A stretch of DNA of 42,444 bases from a virus: positions 1 through 42,444 of the IMG/VR virus record IMGVR_UViG_3300015265_000009. One strand, 5' to 3'. Below the pieces are notes generated by a model that saw only the letters and a list, made by a program, of their open reading frames with translations, did not search any database and had not been told where the DNA came from. Shown here piece by piece: positions 22,317-37,860 of the stretch (position 1 is its first letter; every line of letters starts with the position of its first letter). Both the position numbers and the translations under genes were made by a program.

Positions 22317-22684
22317 TGCACGTTACTCACTTCACCCGGCAGCGCGAACATGTCGCCGGTCAACGGATCGACAATGAGACCTGACACCACGCTGATGCAG
22401 AACCCCACCCAATACCAACCCGTCGTGTGCGAGTCGAGTTCGACCGTAGGGCCGTTCTCGTACGCCACTTGGTACGTCTGACCGTCAAAGAACCCTGCCG
22501 CAGCGTCCAGCTTGATATGAGCAGGAGTCACACCTGTGGCCACGCGCTGGCCGTCTTCGTCGGTGATGGTGTAGCGCGCACCGGACGGCTCAGACGTGAC
22601 CGCCACGTCTTGCATACGGTCATTCATGATGGTCGAACAGCCAGTCATTGCGAGTACGGCGGCGATTGCGAATAGGCGTTTCAT
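22313..22684 (-). CDS. Lipoprotein with PEGA-like domain
   Basis: A 123-aa product starting M-K-R-L-F-A-I-A-A-V-L-A-M-T-G-C: a lipoprotein signal with Cys16 as the lipid site. It is followed by a PEGA-type repeat (S-E-P-S-G-A-R-Y-T-I-T) and a C-terminal hydrophobic W-Y-W-V-G-F-C-I-S-V-V-S-G-L segment. Similar small lipoproteins are frequent in phages of Pseudomonas. The ATG at 22684 has AAGGAATG upstream; the longer open frame lacks a good start. It may alter the outer membrane, for example for superinfection exclusion, but this is a guess. Confidence 0.78.
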   Translation of the reverse strand: MKRLFAIAAVLAMTGCSTIMNDRMQDVAVTSEPSGARYTITDEDGQRVATGVTPAHIKLDAAAGFFDGQTYQVAYENGPTVELDSHTTGWYWVGFCISVVSGLIVDPLTGDMFALPGEVSNVQ

Positions 22685-22690
22685 GTCGTG

Positions 22691-22759
22691 CATTCCTTGA
22701 ATGGTTGTCGGTACTGACAAAGCCCCAGTTAAGGGGCTTGAGGTGGGCGGGGTTGGTTA
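22691..22759 (-). repeat. Dispersed repeat, stop-to-start intergenic block (copy 1)
   Basis: Reading leftward from the stop of the 51-aa gene, the first 31 nt are identical to the block at 34471 on the other strand, and the rest to GGAATG is similar. The block carries a hairpin and the SD of the next gene. Together with the leader repeat at 22914-22934 it forms a cassette. Confidence 0.85.
22720..22739 (-). terminator. Hairpin, weak terminator or mRNA structure
   Basis: AAGCCCC and GGGGCTT pair over 7 bp with a 6-nt loop. On the minus strand it is followed only by TTTGTC, so termination may be weak. A near-identical hairpin lies at 34491, so its role may be RNA stability or attenuation. Confidence 0.6.
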
Positions 22760-22912
22760 TTCCCAGCGCTTGCAGTGGTTGGCAATTCGAAGCCAGTACC
22801 GTTTGTTGTAGCGGCGGGCGTCGGCTTTGGCTGATTGGTCATTGTCGAGAATGAAGCCCATCAGCGCCTTATGCTCAAACTTGGCCTTAGTGATTGCCTG
22901 TGTTCTGGTCAT
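22757..22912 (-). CDS. Small basic protein in a repeated cassette
   Basis: A 51-aa ORF starting M-T-R-T-Q-A-I-T-K-A-K-F-E-H-K-A and ending R-Y-W-L-R-I-A-N-H-C-K-R-W-E. It is too short for most ORF callers, but the SD (GGAG, within the conserved leader repeat) and its place between an operator-promoter and a hairpin support it. The leader and trailer are almost the same as those of the RMF-like gene at 34294, but the proteins are unlike. Function unknown. Confidence 0.75.
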   Translation of the reverse strand: MTRTQAITKAKFEHKALMGFILDNDQSAKADARRYNKRYWLRIANHCKRWE

Positions 22913-22946
22913 GTCGTCTTGCTCCGTTGTTCGTTCCTGATGTGCA

Positions 22947-22976
22947 AATCATAATTAACGATTTGAGTTTACGCAA
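22947..22976 (-). promoter_or_regulatory. Promoter with 17-bp operator (leftward)
   Basis: On the minus strand TTGCGT (22976-22971), a 17-nt spacer and TATGAT (22953-22948) make a promoter-like pair. The -10 lies inside the 17-bp operator AATCATAATTAACGATT (22947-22963, plus-strand reading). It lies at the 3' end of the polymerase gene and would drive the 51-aa gene and the lipoprotein genes. Confidence 0.65.
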
Positions 22977-24957
22977 GCCCTAAATCCTTCAACATCGAAA
23001 AAGATTCGCGGATGTACAGACCGTAATCGACATCGGTCGGGAACGTATCGGGTAGATCCATCAGCGGAACCGCCCCGGTGCTACCTGCCACAAGGTTGCC
23101 GTTAGCCGCGTACCTCAGACCGGTGGTTACGCCGTTGCCGTAGTACCAACGCAGCGCCTTGCCGAGCCACACGCCCGTGCGTTCCTCTACTGCACCGCCT
23201 GCCGGGTTGTTGGCGTTCTTCACGGTGAGGAAGCGCTTGATGTCCTGGCAACCCATGATCGTCTGTTCGATGGGCGTGCCGTCGCGCAGGTACGCAATCA
23301 CCGCATCGTTGCAGATGTCTTTACCAGGCGACTTGCCGGATGGGCTGGCCTTCGGGACCACTCCGCTTTCGCCGTACCAACCCTTCGCCTTGTGCGAGCC
23401 GTCAGGCTTGAACGCGATGTAGTTGTTCACGTTGGCGTTATAGATCGCGGTATACTCGGTCGCCTCGGTTTCAAGGCCGGTCTTCTTGTGCCACCAATCA
23501 ATTGTGCTATCGCGCATGAACTCCAACCCAGCCGGCGTGATAACCACAATACCGTCAGTGTTAGCCGACACGACCCGGATGCCGTTAAGTTCGAACATTT
23601 CAATCAACATGAGCAACGCAAGTTGGCCGCTCAAGGTCGTACGAATCATCAGCTCGGGCGCGAACAGGAAGCTGTACCGGCTACCGAGTTTGCCATAGGT
23701 GCCGTTGAGTACGATCTTCAGGCCGTCGCTGATCGTCTTCCAATACTTGGCCTGCACCTTGTCGCCTGCCGCTTCGCATTCCTGCTGCATGTGCTTGGCG
23801 TGTAGGCGGGTGTCATAGATTTCGCGGAACACTTCAAGGAACGCAGGGCCGGTGCCGGCTGGGTACATGCCCATCAACAGCATAAGCGTCGGGTAATAGC
23901 TGTTTACGTCGTGGTCCGTGATCGTCCACTTGCCTGGCACCGATTTAAAGTGGGCCTTCTTTTCCTTACTGTGCAGGCCGCCGATACCGATCCGGTACAG
24001 GGACTTCCCGATCTTGATGTCGCGGCCCTTGATTTCATCGCTGAACTGAATGCCGGACTTGATTTCCTTGCCGTCAAGGTTGAACACCTTTTCGTCTTCG
24101 CTAACCTTCAGTTCGTCGGGGTTCTTCACGATAAAGCCAACGCGCTGAACCATCGCCAATACGTCTTGCAGCTCGGCCGACACGAACGATAGCCACGGGG
24201 GTGCGACGTATTTGAACGCGTGGCCGTGCGGTAGCCAGGTCTTTTGCGGGGCGAACGGTAGCTTGGCCTTGAACACCGCTTCGGCAATCTGCGCATCAGA
24301 CTTGGACATAACCTGAATGCCGTATTGCTGGCCGACTTCGTGCCGCAGGCGCAGGCGATCCATCACGGCAAACTTCAGGTCGCGCGTGGTGTATAGGTCG
24401 TTGCCGCAGTAGGTCGAAACAAGCATGCGGTCTGCGAACGTCAAGTCGGCAGCGTGATCAAATGGCAGATCTTGCAACCGCTTCGAATGCATCCGGCCGC
24501 CGTAGATCTTCAGGCTGATCCGCACGCCTGGCGCCACTTCCATGATGTCGATCATGTTCCAGTCAGGTTCGGGTATCTGGAAGTTGCGGTAGAAGTCCCA
24601 CCACGACACGCCACGCTTGCCGCCACCTGGGAAAATGGCGTCGTTCAGGTTCTTCAGGGTGTTGCAGTCCAGGCCCGTCAGCGCCGCCGCGATCATCGGG
24701 TTGTCATAGCCGACGCCGTTGAACATGATCAGACCCGGTACGCTGTCGATGTAGGCGCGCAGGCCGGCAACGTCGAGTGGCTTACCAGGCCATTGCGCAA
24801 ACTCAACCATTGGCCCGGTTGGCGGGTAGAACTTGCACAGCCAATAGTTGCGCGCGCATTCCGTGTCGCACTCTACCCATTGCGAGATATCGAACGCCGT
24901 CTTTTCAATCGGCGGTGCGACGTATTGTCCGGGTAGCGGCAAAGGCTTCAGCATCAT
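22969..24957 (-). CDS. DNA polymerase, family B-like
   Basis: A 662-aa replicative polymerase. The 3'-5' exonuclease motifs are visible: ExoI D-T-E (about 31), ExoII N-G-V-G-Y-D (80-85), ExoIII Y-C-G-N-D (183-187). The polymerase motifs are A D-V-N-S-Y-Y-P (350-356), B K-I-V-L-N-G-T-Y-G (414-422) and C A-N-T-D-G (465-469), where the usual first Asp of D-T-D is Asn while the catalytic Asp remains. The protein is compact and shows no obvious TPR1 protein-priming insert. Its start overlaps the stop of the 56-aa gene (TGATG); either of the two adjacent ATGs fits. It probably replicates the genome with the prim-pol helicase at 38141. Confidence 0.9.
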   Translation of the reverse strand: MMLKPLPLPGQYVAPPIEKTAFDISQWVECDTECARNYWLCKFYPPTGPMVEFAQWPGKPLDVAGLRAYIDSVPGLIMFNGVGYDNPMIAAALTGLDCNTLKNLNDAIFPGGGKRGVSWWDFYRNFQIPEPDWNMIDIMEVAPGVRISLKIYGGRMHSKRLQDLPFDHAADLTFADRMLVSTYCGNDLYTTRDLKFAVMDRLRLRHEVGQQYGIQVMSKSDAQIAEAVFKAKLPFAPQKTWLPHGHAFKYVAPPWLSFVSAELQDVLAMVQRVGFIVKNPDELKVSEDEKVFNLDGKEIKSGIQFSDEIKGRDIKIGKSLYRIGIGGLHSKEKKAHFKSVPGKWTITDHDVNSYYPTLMLLMGMYPAGTGPAFLEVFREIYDTRLHAKHMQQECEAAGDKVQAKYWKTISDGLKIVLNGTYGKLGSRYSFLFAPELMIRTTLSGQLALLMLIEMFELNGIRVVSANTDGIVVITPAGLEFMRDSTIDWWHKKTGLETEATEYTAIYNANVNNYIAFKPDGSHKAKGWYGESGVVPKASPSGKSPGKDICNDAVIAYLRDGTPIEQTIMGCQDIKRFLTVKNANNPAGGAVEERTGVWLGKALRWYYGNGVTTGLRYAANGNLVAGSTGAVPLMDLPDTFPTDVDYGLYIRESFSMLKDLGLA

Positions 24958-25127
24958 CAAACCTCGGGCAGTTCATCGCCATTTGAGTCGTACGCCAGCA
25001 TGGTGGGAACTGGCACAACCCAAGGCATAGACCTTATGTCTGCGACACGCGCTGTCAAATCGGTAATAGTTGCGAATTCTTCTTCGCTTGTTGGTGCATC
25101 TGGCCAGCTGATAACTAAAAGGAACAT
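24957..25127 (-). CDS. Small acidic protein upstream of the polymerase
   Basis: A 56-aa ORF (M-F-L-L-V-I-S-W-P-D-A-P-T-S-E-E at the start, acidic end) with GAGGG about 7 nt upstream. Its stop overlaps the polymerase start, which suggests translational coupling. It is not in any family I know and could be a polymerase accessory protein, by context only. Confidence 0.7.
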   Translation of the reverse strand: MFLLVISWPDAPTSEEEFATITDLTARVADIRSMPWVVPVPTMLAYDSNGDELPEV

Positions 25128-25188: not shown

Positions 25189-26160
25189 TTAGCCAACCTT
25201 GACCATGTACCCGTTAGCAAGCAGCACTTCGTCAGTGTGACCCTGTGCGTTCAATGCCTCGCGGGTGTAGCCGGCTGCGGTCGCTTCGGCCGACATCTGA
25301 TACACAGGCGCGGCCAGTACGGCAGCAACGACGGCATGGTTCGGCAGTACTGGTAGACCCGGCAACGCGGCTGGTGCAACGGCCACTGCTGGGAGCACGG
25401 CAGCTACGGCCGGCATACCAGGCAACGCACCGGCAACGCCTGGCAGAGCCATTGGAGCCGGCAGCGTGGCGACCGCAGCAACTGCGGGCATACCCGGCAA
25501 CGATGGCGCGGCACCGACAGCGGGAAGTCCTGGCAGTGCGCCAGCACCAGCCGGAAGAACCATCGCAGGGGCTTGTGCCAGTAGTTCCGCAGCATCAGGG
25601 CCGCTAACGATCACAGGGCCGCTACCACACACTTCAACGATGTCAGGGTTCAGGTACAGGCCAGGCTTGTTGCTTGGTGCGTTGCCTTTCATGCTGCCGA
25701 TGACACGGATGAAATAGCCACGGGGTGCAAGGTTCGGATCCTTGATTTGGTCTTCAGGGCGGGCACGTCCAACATAGAACACACGCGGTAGATACGAACC
25801 GCCGAACTTCAGAACCCAATGGCCGGCGAAGCCTTCCTTCTCGCTGTTCTTCTTGCCGTTCTGGTCAACACCGTCGCCGTCCATCAGCTTCCACGAAAAG
25901 TTCGGGTGGGTGCAATTGCCCGCAGCGTCGAAGAAGTTCGGGAACGCAGCCTTGGCTTCAGCCTGCATCTGCGCATAGAACGGCATGAACAGCGGATCGT
26001 CTTTAGCGTAGGCCACCGCGAAGAAACCACGGCTTGCCGGTTGACCTGCGTTCGGGCCGGTCTTTACAGTCAGCGGTGCGCCGGTTTGGTTGTCTTTGGT
26101 TTGCAGTTCGAACAGGGAACCTTGAACGAAGCGACCAACAGGGGAAGTAAATGCAGTCAT
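25189..26160 (-). CDS. Single-stranded DNA-binding protein (DUF2815-like)
   Basis: A 323-aa protein. Residues 1 to about 190 match the phage DUF2815/T7 gp2.5-like SSB pattern: G-F-F-A-V-A-Y-A-K-D-D-P near the start, W-K-L-M-D-G-D-G and G-H-W-V-L-K-F-G-G-S-Y-L-P-R-V-F and R-G-Y-F-I-R-V-I-G. From about 195 to 285 a low-complexity hydrophobic array of A-L-P-G-L-P-A-V/A-L-P-G-M-P-A-V units replaces the acidic tail normal for SSBs. The last 35 residues (G-Y-T-R-E-A-L-N-A-Q-G-H-T-D) look like a small repeat motif. Overlaps the nuclease gene by 4 nt. Confidence 0.83.
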   Translation of the reverse strand: MTAFTSPVGRFVQGSLFELQTKDNQTGAPLTVKTGPNAGQPASRGFFAVAYAKDDPLFMPFYAQMQAEAKAAFPNFFDAAGNCTHPNFSWKLMDGDGVDQNGKKNSEKEGFAGHWVLKFGGSYLPRVFYVGRARPEDQIKDPNLAPRGYFIRVIGSMKGNAPSNKPGLYLNPDIVEVCGSGPVIVSGPDAAELLAQAPAMVLPAGAGALPGLPAVGAAPSLPGMPAVAAVATLPAPMALPGVAGALPGMPAVAAVLPAVAVAPAALPGLPVLPNHAVVAAVLAAPVYQMSAEATAAGYTREALNAQGHTDEVLLANGYMVKVG

Positions 26161-27293
26161 TGTGATAGTGCCTTTCTAAGTGAACGTTCGGTAAATGGTA
26201 CAAGTTTGCGACCGCCTGGCCGCGTCGTTATGAAGCGATCAACCAATGCAGGGTCCATCAGTTGCTTGACCTGTAGCGGTGTCTTGGCGTGCCGTGGTTT
26301 GGCGATGTCGACCCCCAGCACATCAGCGAGCGCAAGTATCTGCTGTTCGCCGTCTTCGGTGTAAACCGTCTTCGTGTTGCCATCGCCCATAGTCCAGTGC
26401 GGGTTGTGGCCGCCGTTGCGTAGAGCGTAGATAACCTGTTGCTCAAGCCCCGTGACCATCGTCTTCAGTGCCTGTTGTGCAGCCTTCAACCGGCGCAGTG
26501 CATCGCCCGCCGCTTCCGGCGTAAGGTCGTGTGGAACAGAACGCGCCGAGATATCCAACGCCACCAGACTTGCACGTTGAGCGGCAGGGCACGCGTGTCT
26601 TGCCGAACAATCGTTGCAATGGTCGCCGGCCCGTAATGGCGGGTTGGGAGCAACAACTTCGATTGCAGCGGCTCGCAACTGATTCCATATTGGTCGGAGC
26701 ATGGCAGCCTTGACCTTCCAATTGCGCACGACACCAGCACTAAAGCTGCGAGGCTGCACGATAACAATATCAACCGCGATGTCTTGTTCACTGTGACCGT
26801 CCAGAACGATGACGCCGGTTTGGTGAAGGAAGTCCAGCACGGCAGACACATAGATCGTCAGTTGCGGGTTCTCGAAAGCGTCAACAAACCGGAAGCCGTA
26901 CTTGTAATCCCACACGGTCAAGGTTCTGGTGACGGGGTTCCATGACCACGCGTCGGGGGTACCACCACACTGTGCGTGGATGTGCGCCGCAAGCAACGTC
27001 ATTTCCATGTATACCGGGTGACCGCCCGAGCGTTGGCGCAAGTCGTTCAGGTAGAGCTGCGCACCGTCAAGCATGTCGTCGTCGACTTCAACGCGGTTCG
27101 GTGCAACGACCCCTTCCGTTACAATGTAACCTTGCCCCATCATGTGGGCCACCCAGTGCCCCGCTATACCTTCTTCGCGCACCGTGTCGTTAACCAGTCC
27201 AGGCACTTCCGGGTACAGCGCACACATCTGCGCGTACCCGCGACACCCACCGGTTCCCCAAATCCATGCAGCTGATGGGCGGATGTCGTACAT
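26157..27293 (-). CDS. PD-(D/E)XK nuclease (DUF2800/RecB-like)
   Basis: A 378-aa protein. The nuclease core shows G-T-P-D-A-W-S-W followed by V-W-D-Y-K-Y-G, the D...DxK of the PD-(D/E)XK fold (about 107-127), as in DUF2800-type phage exonucleases. One Cys in the N-terminal G-G-C-R-G-Y plus H-C-N-D-C-S-A-R-H-A-C-P (about 230) could ligate an iron-sulfur cluster, as in RecB/AddB/Cas4 relatives; this is inference. It may process DNA ends for recombination with the adjacent SSB. ATG 27293, 2 nt after the upstream stop, is preferred over the extended frame. Confidence 0.78.
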   Translation of the reverse strand: MYDIRPSAAWIWGTGGCRGYAQMCALYPEVPGLVNDTVREEGIAGHWVAHMMGQGYIVTEGVVAPNRVEVDDDMLDGAQLYLNDLRQRSGGHPVYMEMTLLAAHIHAQCGGTPDAWSWNPVTRTLTVWDYKYGFRFVDAFENPQLTIYVSAVLDFLHQTGVIVLDGHSEQDIAVDIVIVQPRSFSAGVVRNWKVKAAMLRPIWNQLRAAAIEVVAPNPPLRAGDHCNDCSARHACPAAQRASLVALDISARSVPHDLTPEAAGDALRRLKAAQQALKTMVTGLEQQVIYALRNGGHNPHWTMGDGNTKTVYTEDGEQQILALADVLGVDIAKPRHAKTPLQVKQLMDPALVDRFITTRPGGRKLVPFTERSLRKALSQ

Positions 27294-27295
27294 GG

Positions 27296-28060
27296 TTACG
27301 CCCCGAGCGTCAGTTTGAACCACTTGTAGAACGGCTCAACGATATCAGCACGATGCGCCATGAGCGGGAGTTGTGGCGTCTGGGTTTCAGGATCGACCAA
27401 GCCGTAATGGGTCAAGCCGCGATTGAGTTCGTCGGTGGCTTTCTGGCCGAACTTGACGACGCACTGCGCAACGAACTGTGCGAACGATGGGTAATCCGTG
27501 ACTACGATTTCAGCGTCAGGGATCGGCAATACTGGCGGCAGGCTCGGCAACGCTGCTGCACCGGCTGGTAAGGTCGGAAGGGTCGATACAGTTGAAGGCC
27601 CTGCAACACTAGCAGTGATGGTGATAGGTGCGGTCGTTGGTAATGGTTGACCGATCAAGGATTTGTTCTGCGCGTTGATCTGATCGACCAAAGTCTTGTC
27701 AACACCCTTCTTCAGCTTCCAAGTACCGTTGGCAATCTTCGACTTGCCGGCGCTGTGGATGCGCACATCATACGGGTGGCCAGCGGTGTCCAGTTCTACG
27801 GCAGTGTTGGAAGATGCGACGGGCGCGGCAGTTGCACCAGAAGCGTTCGGCGTCAAAGGTGCCAAGGCAGAAGGCACAAGTGGTAGGGCGGGCAAGCCGT
27901 TTGGGACGTTGATTGCCGGGTTTGCCAGTTCGGTTGCAGTGAAGTTTTCGTTGTCGGCTTGGTCGATATAGAAGGTGGTGCCAAGGGCGAAGCGTACAGC
28001 GTCGTCCAGTTCTTTACGCAGAGCGATTGGGGATTGGGCCAGATCGATGGTCAGTTTCAT
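27296..28060 (-). CDS. Pro/Ala-rich replication-module protein
   Basis: A 254-aa product, first gene of the leftward replication operon. The N-terminal 40 residues, a middle segment H-P-Y-D-V-R-I-H-S-A-G-K-S-K-I and a C-terminal helical domain are separated by two Pro/Ala/Leu-rich linkers (P-A-L-P-L-V-P-S-A-L-A-P; L-P-T-L-P-A-G-A-A-A-L-P). These linkers resemble the array in the SSB two genes away. No enzymatic motif is visible. Possibly an SSB or nuclease partner. Confidence 0.7.
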   Translation of the reverse strand: MKLTIDLAQSPIALRKELDDAVRFALGTTFYIDQADNENFTATELANPAINVPNGLPALPLVPSALAPLTPNASGATAAPVASSNTAVELDTAGHPYDVRIHSAGKSKIANGTWKLKKGVDKTLVDQINAQNKSLIGQPLPTTAPITITASVAGPSTVSTLPTLPAGAAALPSLPPVLPIPDAEIVVTDYPSFAQFVAQCVVKFGQKATDELNRGLTHYGLVDPETQTPQLPLMAHRADIVEPFYKWFKLTLGA

Positions 28061-28083: not shown

Positions 28084-28129
28084 TTGCAACGGGGAGCGAT
28101 GCTAATCATAATTTACGAATCGTGCAACC
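28084..28129. promoter_or_regulatory. Divergent control region with operator
   Basis: The 86-nt gap between the leftward (28060) and rightward (28147) operons holds an inverted repeat (GGTTGCA 28082-28088 / TGCAACC 28123-28129) that brackets the operator variant AATCATAATTTACGAAT (28104-28120). For the rightward operon TTGCAA (28084-28089), 17 nt and CATAAT (28107-28112) make a promoter overlapping the operator. A leftward promoter should also be here, but I see no convincing -10/-35 pair for it. Confidence 0.65.
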
Positions 28130-33645: not shown

Positions 33646-34176
33646 ATGGACACTTTTGCAGCAGTATTTGTTGATCTTGCAAGCGCATTCGAAGTGGTCG
33701 AGACCGTCGCCGGCCGATTCTTTGGAGTGATGCGCGATAACGACATCAACACCCTGGATGAACTGAACGAGCAGGTAACCGCAGCCTACGTGGCCAACGG
33801 TTGGAGCCAGACCAAAGGGCGACCTAAGGCCGGCGCAACCGAAAAGCCCGCACCCGACATCGTTCAAACCTACGTATCAATCGCACGGCGCGGCCTGGAT
33901 CTTGGGCTTGATGTGAAGTCGTTCGAAACCATGTACCAGTTGCGCAAAGCCATTGCCGAGACACCGACCAGCCATGCGAGTGGGCCTGAACGCTTGCCCG
34001 AGCTGAAAGGTATCTCGATAGCCGACCCGAACAAGCTGACCGGCAGTTTTTGCCACGATGTCGCGGTGTTTACTCGGGTGCTGCCGGAAGACAAGCGGCT
34101 TGAAATGGAAGACCGGGTGCGCAAGGTCATGAAGCGTTACGAACGGTATGTGTACAAAGCGCTATCGGCCGAATAG
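33646..34176 (+). CDS. Early protein of unknown function, operator-controlled
   Basis: A 176-aa protein, helical, charged, with an N-terminal F-V-D-L-A-S-A-F-E-V-V-E and a C-terminal Arg/Lys/Glu-rich helix (D-R-V-R-K-V-M-K-R-Y-E-R-Y). A flexible linker S-Q-T-K-G-R-P-K-A-G-A lies at about 55-65. It is a single-gene unit between the operator promoter at 33536 and the terminator at 34197, suggesting tight and high control. No family recognised; a DNA-binding role is possible from the basic C-terminus. Confidence 0.65.
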   Translation: MDTFAAVFVDLASAFEVVETVAGRFFGVMRDNDINTLDELNEQVTAAYVANGWSQTKGRPKAGATEKPAPDIVQTYVSIARRGLDLGLDVKSFETMYQLRKAIAETPTSHASGPERLPELKGISIADPNKLTGSFCHDVAVFTRVLPEDKRLEMEDRVRKVMKRYERYVYKALSAE

Positions 34177-34196
34177 GTTGACCGATCCACCATTAA

Positions 34197-34223
34197 GGGC
34201 CGCCTAATTAGCGGCCCTTTTTA
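34197..34223 (+). terminator. Rho-independent terminator
   Basis: A perfect 7-bp stem GGGCCGC/GCGGCCC with a CTAATTA loop and TTTTTATTT. It closes the 33646 gene and directly precedes the next operator-promoter. Confidence 0.9.
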
Positions 34224-34229
34224 TTTCTG

Positions 34230-34259
34230 TTGCACGAATCGTTAATTATGATTTATAGT
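34230..34259 (+). promoter_or_regulatory. Promoter with 17-bp operator (rightward cassette)
   Basis: TTGCAC (34230-34235), 18 nt and TATAGT (34254-34259). The spacer contains AATCGTTAATTATGATT (34237-34253), the operator in the opposite orientation to the 33542 site. It drives the cassette gene 34294. Confidence 0.75.
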
Positions 34260-34293
34260 GAATCCATCGAAACGAACAACGGAGCAAGACGAG

Positions 34294-34473
34294 ATGAACA
34301 AGCTCAAAGTTGAAATGGACGCCTACGCTGACGGCAGCATGGCTTACAACGACGGCAAGACGGCGCACGACAACCCGCATGCACCGGAAAGCGTTCAAGG
34401 CGCGGCATGGCTTAACGGTTGGTCGGATGCTTTCGACTTCGACAACTCGGTCCCGTCTGAATTTGAACTCTAA
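34294..34473 (+). CDS. RMF/CrpP-like small protein (copy 3)
   Basis: A 59-aa product. Its pattern A-Y-A-D-G-S-M-A-Y-N-D-G, N-P-H, A-A-W-L-N-G-W-S-D-A-F matches ribosome modulation factor-like proteins most clearly of the three copies. ATG 34294 is preferred over the upstream GTG at 34258, because GGAGCAAGACGA lies just before it as in the leftward cassette. Downstream there is a hairpin, then the 40-aa gene. Confidence 0.75.
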   Translation: MNKLKVEMDAYADGSMAYNDGKTAHDNPHAPESVQGAAWLNGWSDAFDFDNSVPSEFEL

Positions 34474-34535
34474 CCAACCCCGCCCACCTCAAGCCCCTTA
34501 ATTGGGGCCTTGCCAGCACCAACAACAAAGGAATG
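34471..34535 (+). repeat. Dispersed repeat, stop-to-start intergenic block (copy 2)
   Basis: Identical over the first 31 nt to the block at 22691-22759 on the other strand, then similar up to GGAATG. With the 21-nt leader repeat at 34272-34292 (identical to 22914-22934) and the operator, it gives a duplicated cassette around unlike genes. Confidence 0.85.
34491..34511 (+). terminator. Hairpin, weak terminator or mRNA structure
   Basis: AAGCCCC pairs with GGGGCCTT (one bulge) around a TTAATT loop, with no proper T-run. Same element as at 22720. It may act as a stability or attenuation hairpin between the cassette gene and 34543. Confidence 0.5.
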
Positions 34536-35084: not shown

Positions 35085-35255
35085 ATGTTCGCCATCGTAA
35101 CCGCAATACTGATCGCCACTGCACCGGGTGTTGAGCCCGACAACTTGGCCGCGTTCTTCACTGCTGACGGACCTGCGTTGTGCGCGGCTGTTGCCCAAGG
35201 TCTGAACAGCAGCAAACCCGAAACCCTGTACGTGTGTGAGGTATCGCATGAGTAA
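35085..35255 (+). CDS. Small secreted or membrane-anchored protein
   Basis: A 56-aa ORF starting one base after the previous stop, with GGAG about 10 nt upstream. The N-terminus M-F-A-I-V-T-A-I-L-I-A-T-A-P-G is hydrophobic, and two Cys (L-C-A-A, Y-V-C-E) could form a disulphide in the periplasm. Overlaps the CsrA-like gene by 8 nt. Function unknown. Confidence 0.62.
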   Translation: MFAIVTAILIATAPGVEPDNLAAFFTADGPALCAAVAQGLNSSKPETLYVCEVSHE

Positions 35256-35511
35256 TCTAATGTTGACGCGCAAGGCTGGCCAGCGCGTGCAGGTCGGTGC
35301 GGCTGACTGTGTGGTTGAAATACTGCGGGTTGGACCAGCCGAGGTAATCATCAAGGTTGGCGGTCAGCACGAAAAGCTGCGGCCAGGCAACAAATTAAAC
35401 GTGGTCGACCGTGCGCTGCTGACGGTCGTATCCATCGCTCGGGGCTACGTCAAGCTGGCATTCGAAGCCGACCGCAGCGTGACCATCATGCGTACGGAGC
35501 TGCTGTCATGA
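35248..35511 (+). CDS. CsrA-like RNA-binding protein
   Basis: An 87-aa protein. N-terminal M-L-T-R-K-A-G-Q-R-V-Q-V-G matches the first strands of CsrA (L-I-L-T-R-x-x-G-E-x-x-x-I-G), and the C-terminal A-R-G-Y-V-K-L-A-F-E-A-D-R-S-V-T-I-M-R-T-E matches the region around its RNA-contacting R-E-E (Arg82 here). About 25 extra residues lie between, containing a second V-E-I-L-R-V-G-P strand, so it is a longer, insert-bearing variant (CsrA is about 61 aa). GAGG lies upstream of ATG 35248. It may target host or phage mRNA leaders; not proven. Confidence 0.55.
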   Translation: MSNLMLTRKAGQRVQVGAADCVVEILRVGPAEVIIKVGGQHEKLRPGNKLNVVDRALLTVVSIARGYVKLAFEADRSVTIMRTELLS

Positions 35512-37153: not shown

Positions 37154-37860
37154 TGAGCAGTAAAATTGAAGTAGATCGCGATGCGTTATTGGCCGCCGCG
37201 AACCAGCTAAGCAACTGGGGCAAGACAGTTATGGCCGCCCCGCTGTGGGAAGTCCTCGCCGCCCCTGTCGTCGAGCGCCAGCCTGACGCGTTTCGTTTCA
37301 AATGGGATTACGACCATGGTAATGGCTGGAGTCGTGGCGCGATCCGTTACGTTGAAACCATGGAAGAAGTCGAACACGAAGACAAATCGACTTGGCGAGA
37401 AATTACCGCGCTCTACACCGCCCCGCCCGAACTCGCCGAACTGCAAGCCCCAACGAATGGCGCGCTTATCAAGGATCTGACTGAGGTCATCGCCCAGCAG
37501 GCTGCTGAAATCGAGCGGCTGAAGGGTGGGCAGGGTGAGATCGCCGGATACGCATCGCCCACTTCGCGAGGATACGGTAGCTGGCTTTTCCCGACCGAAC
37601 AGAGCGCCAAGTCCCACATGCAAACCGCATTGAGCGGCGGCCCGATGAAGGCCGACATAATCCCGCTCTACACCTCGCCGCCCGCGCCGGTATCGGTGCT
37701 GCTGGATGAGCGTGAAGAGTTTGAGCGGAACTACCTCGCCGAAGCATTAGAGCGCGACGGTGATGAGTATGTCCGTATGGCGGTGCGGATGGCATGGGAA
37801 GGATGGCAAGCCCGCGCCTGCCTCGACAAGGTCAAGGAGCTGAATCAATGTGCACCATAG
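37153..37860 (+). CDS. Larger early protein, unknown
   Basis: A 235-aa protein. Features: F-K-W-D-Y-D-H-G-N-G-W-S-R-G in the first third, P-L-Y-T-S-P-P-A-P-V, a helix E-V-I-A-Q-Q-A-A-E-I-E-R-L, and W-E-G-W-Q-A-R-A near the end. Such mosaic proteins are frequent in pseudomonad phages and of unknown role. It overlaps the 17-aa ORF at its end. Confidence 0.6.
   Translation: MSSKIEVDRDALLAAANQLSNWGKTVMAAPLWEVLAAPVVERQPDAFRFKWDYDHGNGWSRGAIRYVETMEEVEHEDKSTWREITALYTAPPELAELQAPTNGALIKDLTEVIAQQAAEIERLKGGQGEIAGYASPTSRGYGSWLFPTEQSAKSHMQTALSGGPMKADIIPLYTSPPAPVSVLLDEREEFERNYLAEALERDGDEYVRMAVRMAWEGWQARACLDKVKELNQCAP

Follow-up and report, generated by a model that had tools for sequence, protein, structure and literature searches.

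Probable exchange of small genes as single-gene cassettes between a shared leader and a shared trailer hairpin in phages of environmental Pseudomonas

Background

Morons are extra phage genes that carry their own promoter and terminator, and the gene cassettes of integrons each consist of one open reading frame (ORF) with a hairpin-bearing 3' site, an arrangement in which many unrelated cargos are found. PeSLs are reportedly motifs of T4-like myoviruses which combine a promoter and a stem-loop in one intergenic sequence. In T4-like phages they are reported to act as mobile regulatory cassettes (Arbiol 2010, Comeau 2014, as cited in PMC4503421). Rad52-like phage recombinases carry out relaxed homologous recombination over long, imperfect homologies in temperate phages (PMC3945230).

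The cassettes described here work like the PeSL shuffling of T4, in that a short conserved intergenic regulatory sequence with a stem-loop provides the homology for shuffling small accessory genes, but two defining features of PeSLs are unmet: the carriers are unrelated, non-T4 phages, and the promoter lies outside the conserved unit, which is a leader and a trailer bounding the coding sequence (CDS) at its start and stop. As with a moron, each is a small, self-contained accessory gene that brings expression signals of its own and sits between core genes (the capsid and tubular-protein genes in phage Ep4), but classical morons have no common standard flanks, whereas here the flanks are constant and the cargo varies. 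Unlike integron cassettes they have two conserved flanks, are mostly single and were found in phage genomes only, with no integrase in the scanned proteins of the window (the whole 42.4-kb stretch of viral DNA that was analysed). Relaxed recombination of the Rad52-like kind is a plausible engine, as phage annealases act on short or imperfect homology, although the homology here is a short standard pair of untranslated regions (UTRs), unlike that of the system in PMC3945230.

Results and discussion

Two slots in the window

By PHROG scan the window encodes a terminase, portal, tape measure, DNA polymerase, primase, exonuclease and Gp2.5-like annealing protein. Two slots lie on opposite strands, locus B on the plus and locus A on the minus strand, and have the same build of promoter/operator, leader, ORF and trailer. 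The features are as follows.

33646-34176, plus strand: 176-aa gene preceding slot B and marking it by synteny in L040, L058 and L082 (tblastn)
34195-34219, plus strand: canonical intrinsic terminator closing the transcription unit before the locus-B cassette (terminator scan)
34230-34259, plus strand: locus B promoter, with -35-like TTGCAC at 34230-34235, operator at 34237-34253 and -10-like TATAGT at 34254-34259 (read in the sequence)
34266-34293, plus strand: locus B shared leader, the expected mRNA 5'UTR with a GGAG Shine-Dalgarno (SD) sequence (transcription start inferred from the -10 position)
34294-34473, plus strand: locus B cargo, a 59-aa RMF-like protein (Pfam RMF)
34471-34526, plus strand: locus B shared trailer including the stop codon, hairpin at about 34491-34510 (A/B identity)
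35236-35511, plus strand: CsrA/RsmA-family gene, candidate leader regulator (Pfam CsrA, E 9.5e-11)
22969-24960, minus strand: DNA polymerase gene preceding slot A and marking it by synteny in L054, L080 and Psp6 (PHROG 1252, tblastn)
22947-22976, minus strand: locus A promoter, with -35-like TTGCGT at 22976-22971 and -10-like TATGAT at 22953-22948 (read in the sequence)
22913-22940, minus strand: locus A shared leader (22914-22935 identical to locus B)
22757-22912, minus strand: locus A cargo, a 51-aa basic protein (no family)
22704-22759, minus strand: locus A shared trailer including the stop codon, hairpin at about 22720-22739 (A/B identity)
25189-26160, minus strand: Gp2.5-like annealing protein gene, candidate engine of exchange (PHROGs 7011 and 69 for the annealase/exonuclease pair)
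26157-27323, minus strand: exonuclease gene, candidate engine of exchange (same PHROG pair)

A first-pass annotation had proposed that the two sites carry the same operator, leader with ribosome binding site and 31-nt trailer around unlike genes. The leader AACGAACAACGGAGCAAGACGA was indeed identical at 22 of 22 positions (34271-34292, plus, vs 22914-22935, minus; 0 expected in shuffles), and no further leader site was present in the window at up to 3 mismatches. The trailer TAACCAACCCCGCCCACCTCAAGCCCCTTAA was identical over all 31 nt, stop codon included (34471-34501, plus, vs 22729-22759, minus; 0 expected), and the likeness that had been noticed beyond it reached 56 nt at 91%. A chance origin of these flanks is ruled out by the expectation of 0 for both. 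BLASTP gave no alignment between the 59-aa and 51-aa cargos at E <= 100, as anticipated for unlike genes; on this result and the family scans, duplication with divergence was rejected.

The palindromic operator AATCGTTAATTATGATT was confirmed as exact at both loci (34237 and 22947), but near copies at 28104, 30155, 33542 and 36482 (0.03 expected) make it a phage-wide element of six copies in the window and thus not specific to the cassettes. At locus A it overlaps the -10-like box (22947-22963). Several of the six copies sit between -35- and -10-like boxes, and the regulator was not identified. A site resembling this operator also precedes the cassettes of Psp6 (L008) and L139. A strict consensus scan called the promoter of neither locus, the window's trailer hairpin has no U-tract and was not called as an intrinsic terminator, and an Rfam scan of 22600-23100 (locus A), which is not specific for attC, matched no family.

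The cargo of locus B scored 33.6 bits against Pfam RMF PF04957 (gathering cut-off 27.9, E 4e-8) but only 23.4 bits, below the cut-off of 40, against the NCBIfam RMF equivalog; by these profiles it is RMF-like, not shown to be RMF. Protein searches found no relatives of it. For the cargo of locus A, one distant homologue (52%) was found in phage Cygsa01, in an ordinary gene row without the flanks, so such genes live outside the cassette too.

The flanks in other phages

With blastn, the leader and trailer were found as separate matches with a different ORF between them in the isolate phages phiPto-bp6g, PfAn1, 254, PPSC2, Torfinnsbu, MR14 and SF3, and one or both were found in Touem01, 16Q, PHB09, Ep4, HU1, Psp6, DDSR119 and KP1. 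Carriers include Autographiviridae (Ep4, where the unit is unannotated), Otagovirus and several siphovirus-like lineages, and no T4-like phage was seen among them. Where a host is named it is an environmental Pseudomonas, for example P. fluorescens, P. putida, P. syringae or P. tolaasii. We infer that the carriers are probably virulent phages; Torfinnsbu has a gene annotated as a recombination directionality factor.

Exact-pattern scans of IMG/VR yielded 69 loci by leader and 27 by trailer, and relaxed patterns yielded more. The two scans are mutually independent and agree, with a trailer within 700 nt in 54 of the 69 leader-found loci and a leader (up to 3 mismatches) in 23 of the 27 trailer-found loci. 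Neither exact pattern occurred in 84,980 prokaryote genomes (a set with a single genome for each species and with some stretches masked), which makes the cassette essentially a feature of phages. These empty scans do not support a cellular origin of the flanks, and plasmids, which gave weak trailer-like matches only, were also rejected as a source. We found no description of these flanks in the literature, but most subscription papers and all preprints lay outside the search and novelty is therefore not proven.

One carrier, the Streptomyces phage SF3 (L004, KT221034.1), has flanking DNA 71-80% identical to that of L049/L055, and its Streptomyces host label may be wrong. Of the leader, Klebsiella Webervirus phages share the first half alone, CATCGAAACGAACAACGGAG, which follows promoters of their own; in four of them (L113, L102, L103 and L105) promoter blocks ending in CCCATCGAAAC stand before early genes.

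Across 102 leaders the sequence profile holds close to 2 bits between about -24 and +3, then drops at the fourth or fifth base of the CDS. Upstream there is a weaker TTGAC near -63 and a -10 signal at -40 to -35, positions which place the expected transcription start at about -28, and it is upstream of about -28 that the profile falls, leaving the promoter outside the conserved unit. Over the leader this profile carries a bias from the search pattern, and loci found by their trailer provide the unbiased check. Conserved sequence in the trailer reaches from the stop codon to about +50 and includes an AAGCCCC/GGGGCTT hairpin, each of whose 7 pairs is formed in 61-79 of 79 sequences; whether the hairpin acts as a 3' stabiliser or a weak attenuator is inference. 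A U-tract follows it in some loci (e.g. L023 and L059). Past the hairpin there are at least three continuations, namely CTTTGCCAGTACC leading into the next SD, CTTTTTATTGCC, which is a true terminator, and CTGAGTCAGTGC, and this variety fits right-hand breakpoints in or just after the hairpin. A third continuation, beginning CTGAGTCAGTGCAAAGRCA, is kept over ~70-130 nt in the otherwise unlike loci L025, L041, L042, L060, L074, L077 and L098.

When 14-mers anchored upstream of the ATG were compared, this leader preceded 68 families in 92 loci and any string that was not a variant of it at most 6 families, although this control covers the collected loci, which are enriched for the leader by construction. 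The scan also revealed a second leader type and two other shared gene-gene joints. Leader type 2, ACAACGCCCCGGAGGGCAAGACG-ATG, holds its SD in a small hairpin and has a related trailer and six different cargos (L008, L009, L136, L137, L138 and L139; a pattern scan gave 4 loci), and the cargo of L138 resembles the type-1 cargo of L092. The joint GACAAGGTCAAGGAGCTGAATCA lies at ATGA overlaps, with the upstream protein tail DKVKELNQ and different downstream ORFs, in the window (37825-37847), L042, L054, L065, L083, L090, L117 and L124; judged from the upstream proteins, which are mosaic and partly related, it may be ordinary homology. The joint AAACCCACCGAATCGGGAGCAAGCGA, with upstream tail KPTESGASE, is followed by different ORFs in L061, L063, L065, L083, L090, L092, L117 and L124. 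Neither joint had a match in isolate phages.

Cargo diversity

The expectation that many different small ORFs would be found inside the same flanks was borne out, as after removal of duplicates there were 102 complete cargo ORFs in 83 families (blastp clusters at E 1e-3), including cargos of unrelated phages. Their median length is 61.5 aa (range 22-161). A trailer was found within 700 nt for 80 of the 102, about a fifth of leaders having no recognisable trailer, and in 53 of these 80 the end of the stop codon lies at a fixed distance, exactly 11 nt, before the CACCTCAAG core, which in effect makes the stop a part of the trailer. Units of two genes also occur (e.g. L007, L013 and L021), as does one tandem pair (L097). 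PHROGs were matched by 20 of 73 cargo representatives, each to a different family, and Pfam matches comprised RMF three times and DUF7448, DUF7352 and DUF7421 once each. PADLOC recognised no known defence families among the cargos; a function in host takeover or counter-defence is inferred.

Evidence for exchange

Several pairs of loci have the same cargo in backbones without detectable likeness, the CDS being identical at 97% of nucleotides in L021/L047, 91% in L049/L080, 90% in L021/L070, 87% in L062/L077 and 84% in L023/L096. In these pairs identity spans leader and CDS, in some cases with the trailer, the leader being 96-100% identical, while outside it the promoters (37-53%) and outer flanks are at the background of about 47%. 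Conversely, L053/L083, L019/L051, L013/L014, L063/L099, L049/L055, L054/L080, L040/L058 and others share a backbone but not a cargo; their promoters are 78-100% identical and their CDS, at background (45-53%), are unrelated from about the ATG. L053/L083 are almost identical for 110 nt up to ATGA and diverge after it, and L021/L047 are unrelated until GAAACGAACAACGG, then identical or nearly so, ending just past the hairpin. L019 and L051 have one backbone and different cargos, each with a relative in another backbone (L066 and L074), a pattern which, on these alignments, is hard to explain without shuffling.

Both slots of the window show the same behaviour. The polymerase gene stands ahead of slot A not only in the window but also in L054, L080 and Psp6 (52-65% aa identity), and these four hold four different cargos. 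Ahead of slot B, the window has the 176-aa gene in common with L040, L058 and L082 (34-43%), and here too there are four cargos. In L082 a homologue (73%) of the lipoprotein found downstream of locus A in the window is located a few hundred bases past the locus-B trailer; this position suggests that downstream genes have also been rejoined at trailer-like junctions. In some same-backbone pairs the sequence just past the trailer could not be aligned, so exchange can include the next gene. Thus of the first-pass suggestion of a swap or duplication module, swapping holds in both directions, with breakpoints in leader and trailer, but duplication is not the main story because the two copies in the window are separate slots, with other cargos in the relatives of each. 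As read from these alignments, the promoter/operator is not exchanged in most swaps and the conserved unit is the untranslated leader plus trailer.

The small size of all the cargos and the three RMF-like proteins among them would fit descent from one ancestral gene, diverged beyond recognition between constant UTRs, but we regard this as scarcely credible given the 20 PHROG families, the several Pfam families, the range of lengths, the near-identical cargos in unrelated backbones and the cargo homologue outside any flank. Common ancestry of all cargos is already contradicted by the family diversity and the backbone transfers. An integron-like system, in which the trailer hairpin is a site where a site-specific recombinase excises and inserts cassettes, would account for a unit of ORF plus hairpin and for the tandem pair. 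It is very improbable, as no integrase was present among the about 40 window proteins scanned (not every small ORF), a second conserved block, the leader, stands on the 5' side, slots hold one cassette and arrays are rare, and breakpoints vary between pairs and are not at one base.

Proposed mechanism

We consider it probable that these are single-gene cassettes exchanged by recombination between the shared 5'UTR and the shared 3'UTR hairpin, although exchange is inferred from sequence comparison and was not observed. Each site would be an exchange slot, in which transcription runs from a sigma70-type promoter/operator particular to the phage into a shared, unstructured 5'UTR of ~28 nt with an SD, followed by one (sometimes two) small accessory genes and then a shared 3'UTR that would begin at the stop codon, form a GC hairpin and run on to the SD of the following gene. 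In a cell infected by two carrier phages, homologous or annealing recombination within the short shared UTRs would replace the CDS and the expression signals would stay intact. The aligned sequences show shared flanks, unrelated cargos, breakpoints and transfer between backbones; the recombinase (a phage annealase/exonuclease or host RecA) and the exact mRNA ends are inferred.

Against this reading, some of the leader's conservation is a product of the search pattern itself. Red-beta recombination needs at least ~30 bp (PMC3945230) and the perfectly shared leader, at only ~22-28 nt, is at or below this minimum, so that additional homology in the promoter may often be required for the left crossover.

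A possible regulatory role of the flanks

It is also possible, though we think it unlikely, that the flanks owe their conservation mainly to a role as regulatory RNA, in which the leader is a translation-control site (e.g. of RsmA/CsrA type at ACGGAG) and the trailer stabilises the mRNA, with exchange a by-product. The leaders of L034/L094 and L017/L093 are 92-100% identical although the CDS are 73-79% identical and the promoters unrelated. GGA is the core of CsrA sites; the leader SD, ACGGAG, contains it, and in leader type 2 it lies in the hairpin loop. CsrA-like genes occur 0.6-1.5 kb from the cassette in seven loci (the window, Psp6, L032, L094, L120, L135 and, weakly, L137), the window's own lying 942 nt downstream of the locus-B start codon, and csrA was found in only about 5% of Pseudomonas phages (PMC7366521). 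However, no CsrA was seen in the examined part (3-15 kb only) of most loci, and regulation alone leaves near-identical cargos in unrelated backbones unexplained. In the absence of binding data, control of the leader by CsrA/RsmA is suggestive, from motif and gene position, and not shown.

Conclusions

Exchange of cassettes between shared UTRs offers a concrete route for the spread of orphan accessory genes between unrelated phages, a long-standing question. More tentatively, and short of an even chance in our judgement, phages of unrelated families that infect environmental Pseudomonas may share a gene commons, in which viruses with little else recognisable in common at the sequence level exchange small genes inside a standard UTR pair that is absent from bacterial genomes, and CsrA/RsmA-type proteins read the pair so that every new cargo comes under one common translational control. 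In practice, a search with two short DNA strings yields dozens of family-less, sometimes unannotated, small phage genes which are good candidates for host takeover or counter-defence. The flanks are thus a ready-made tag for unknown viral accessory genes and a clean system in which to test short-homology recombination between phages.
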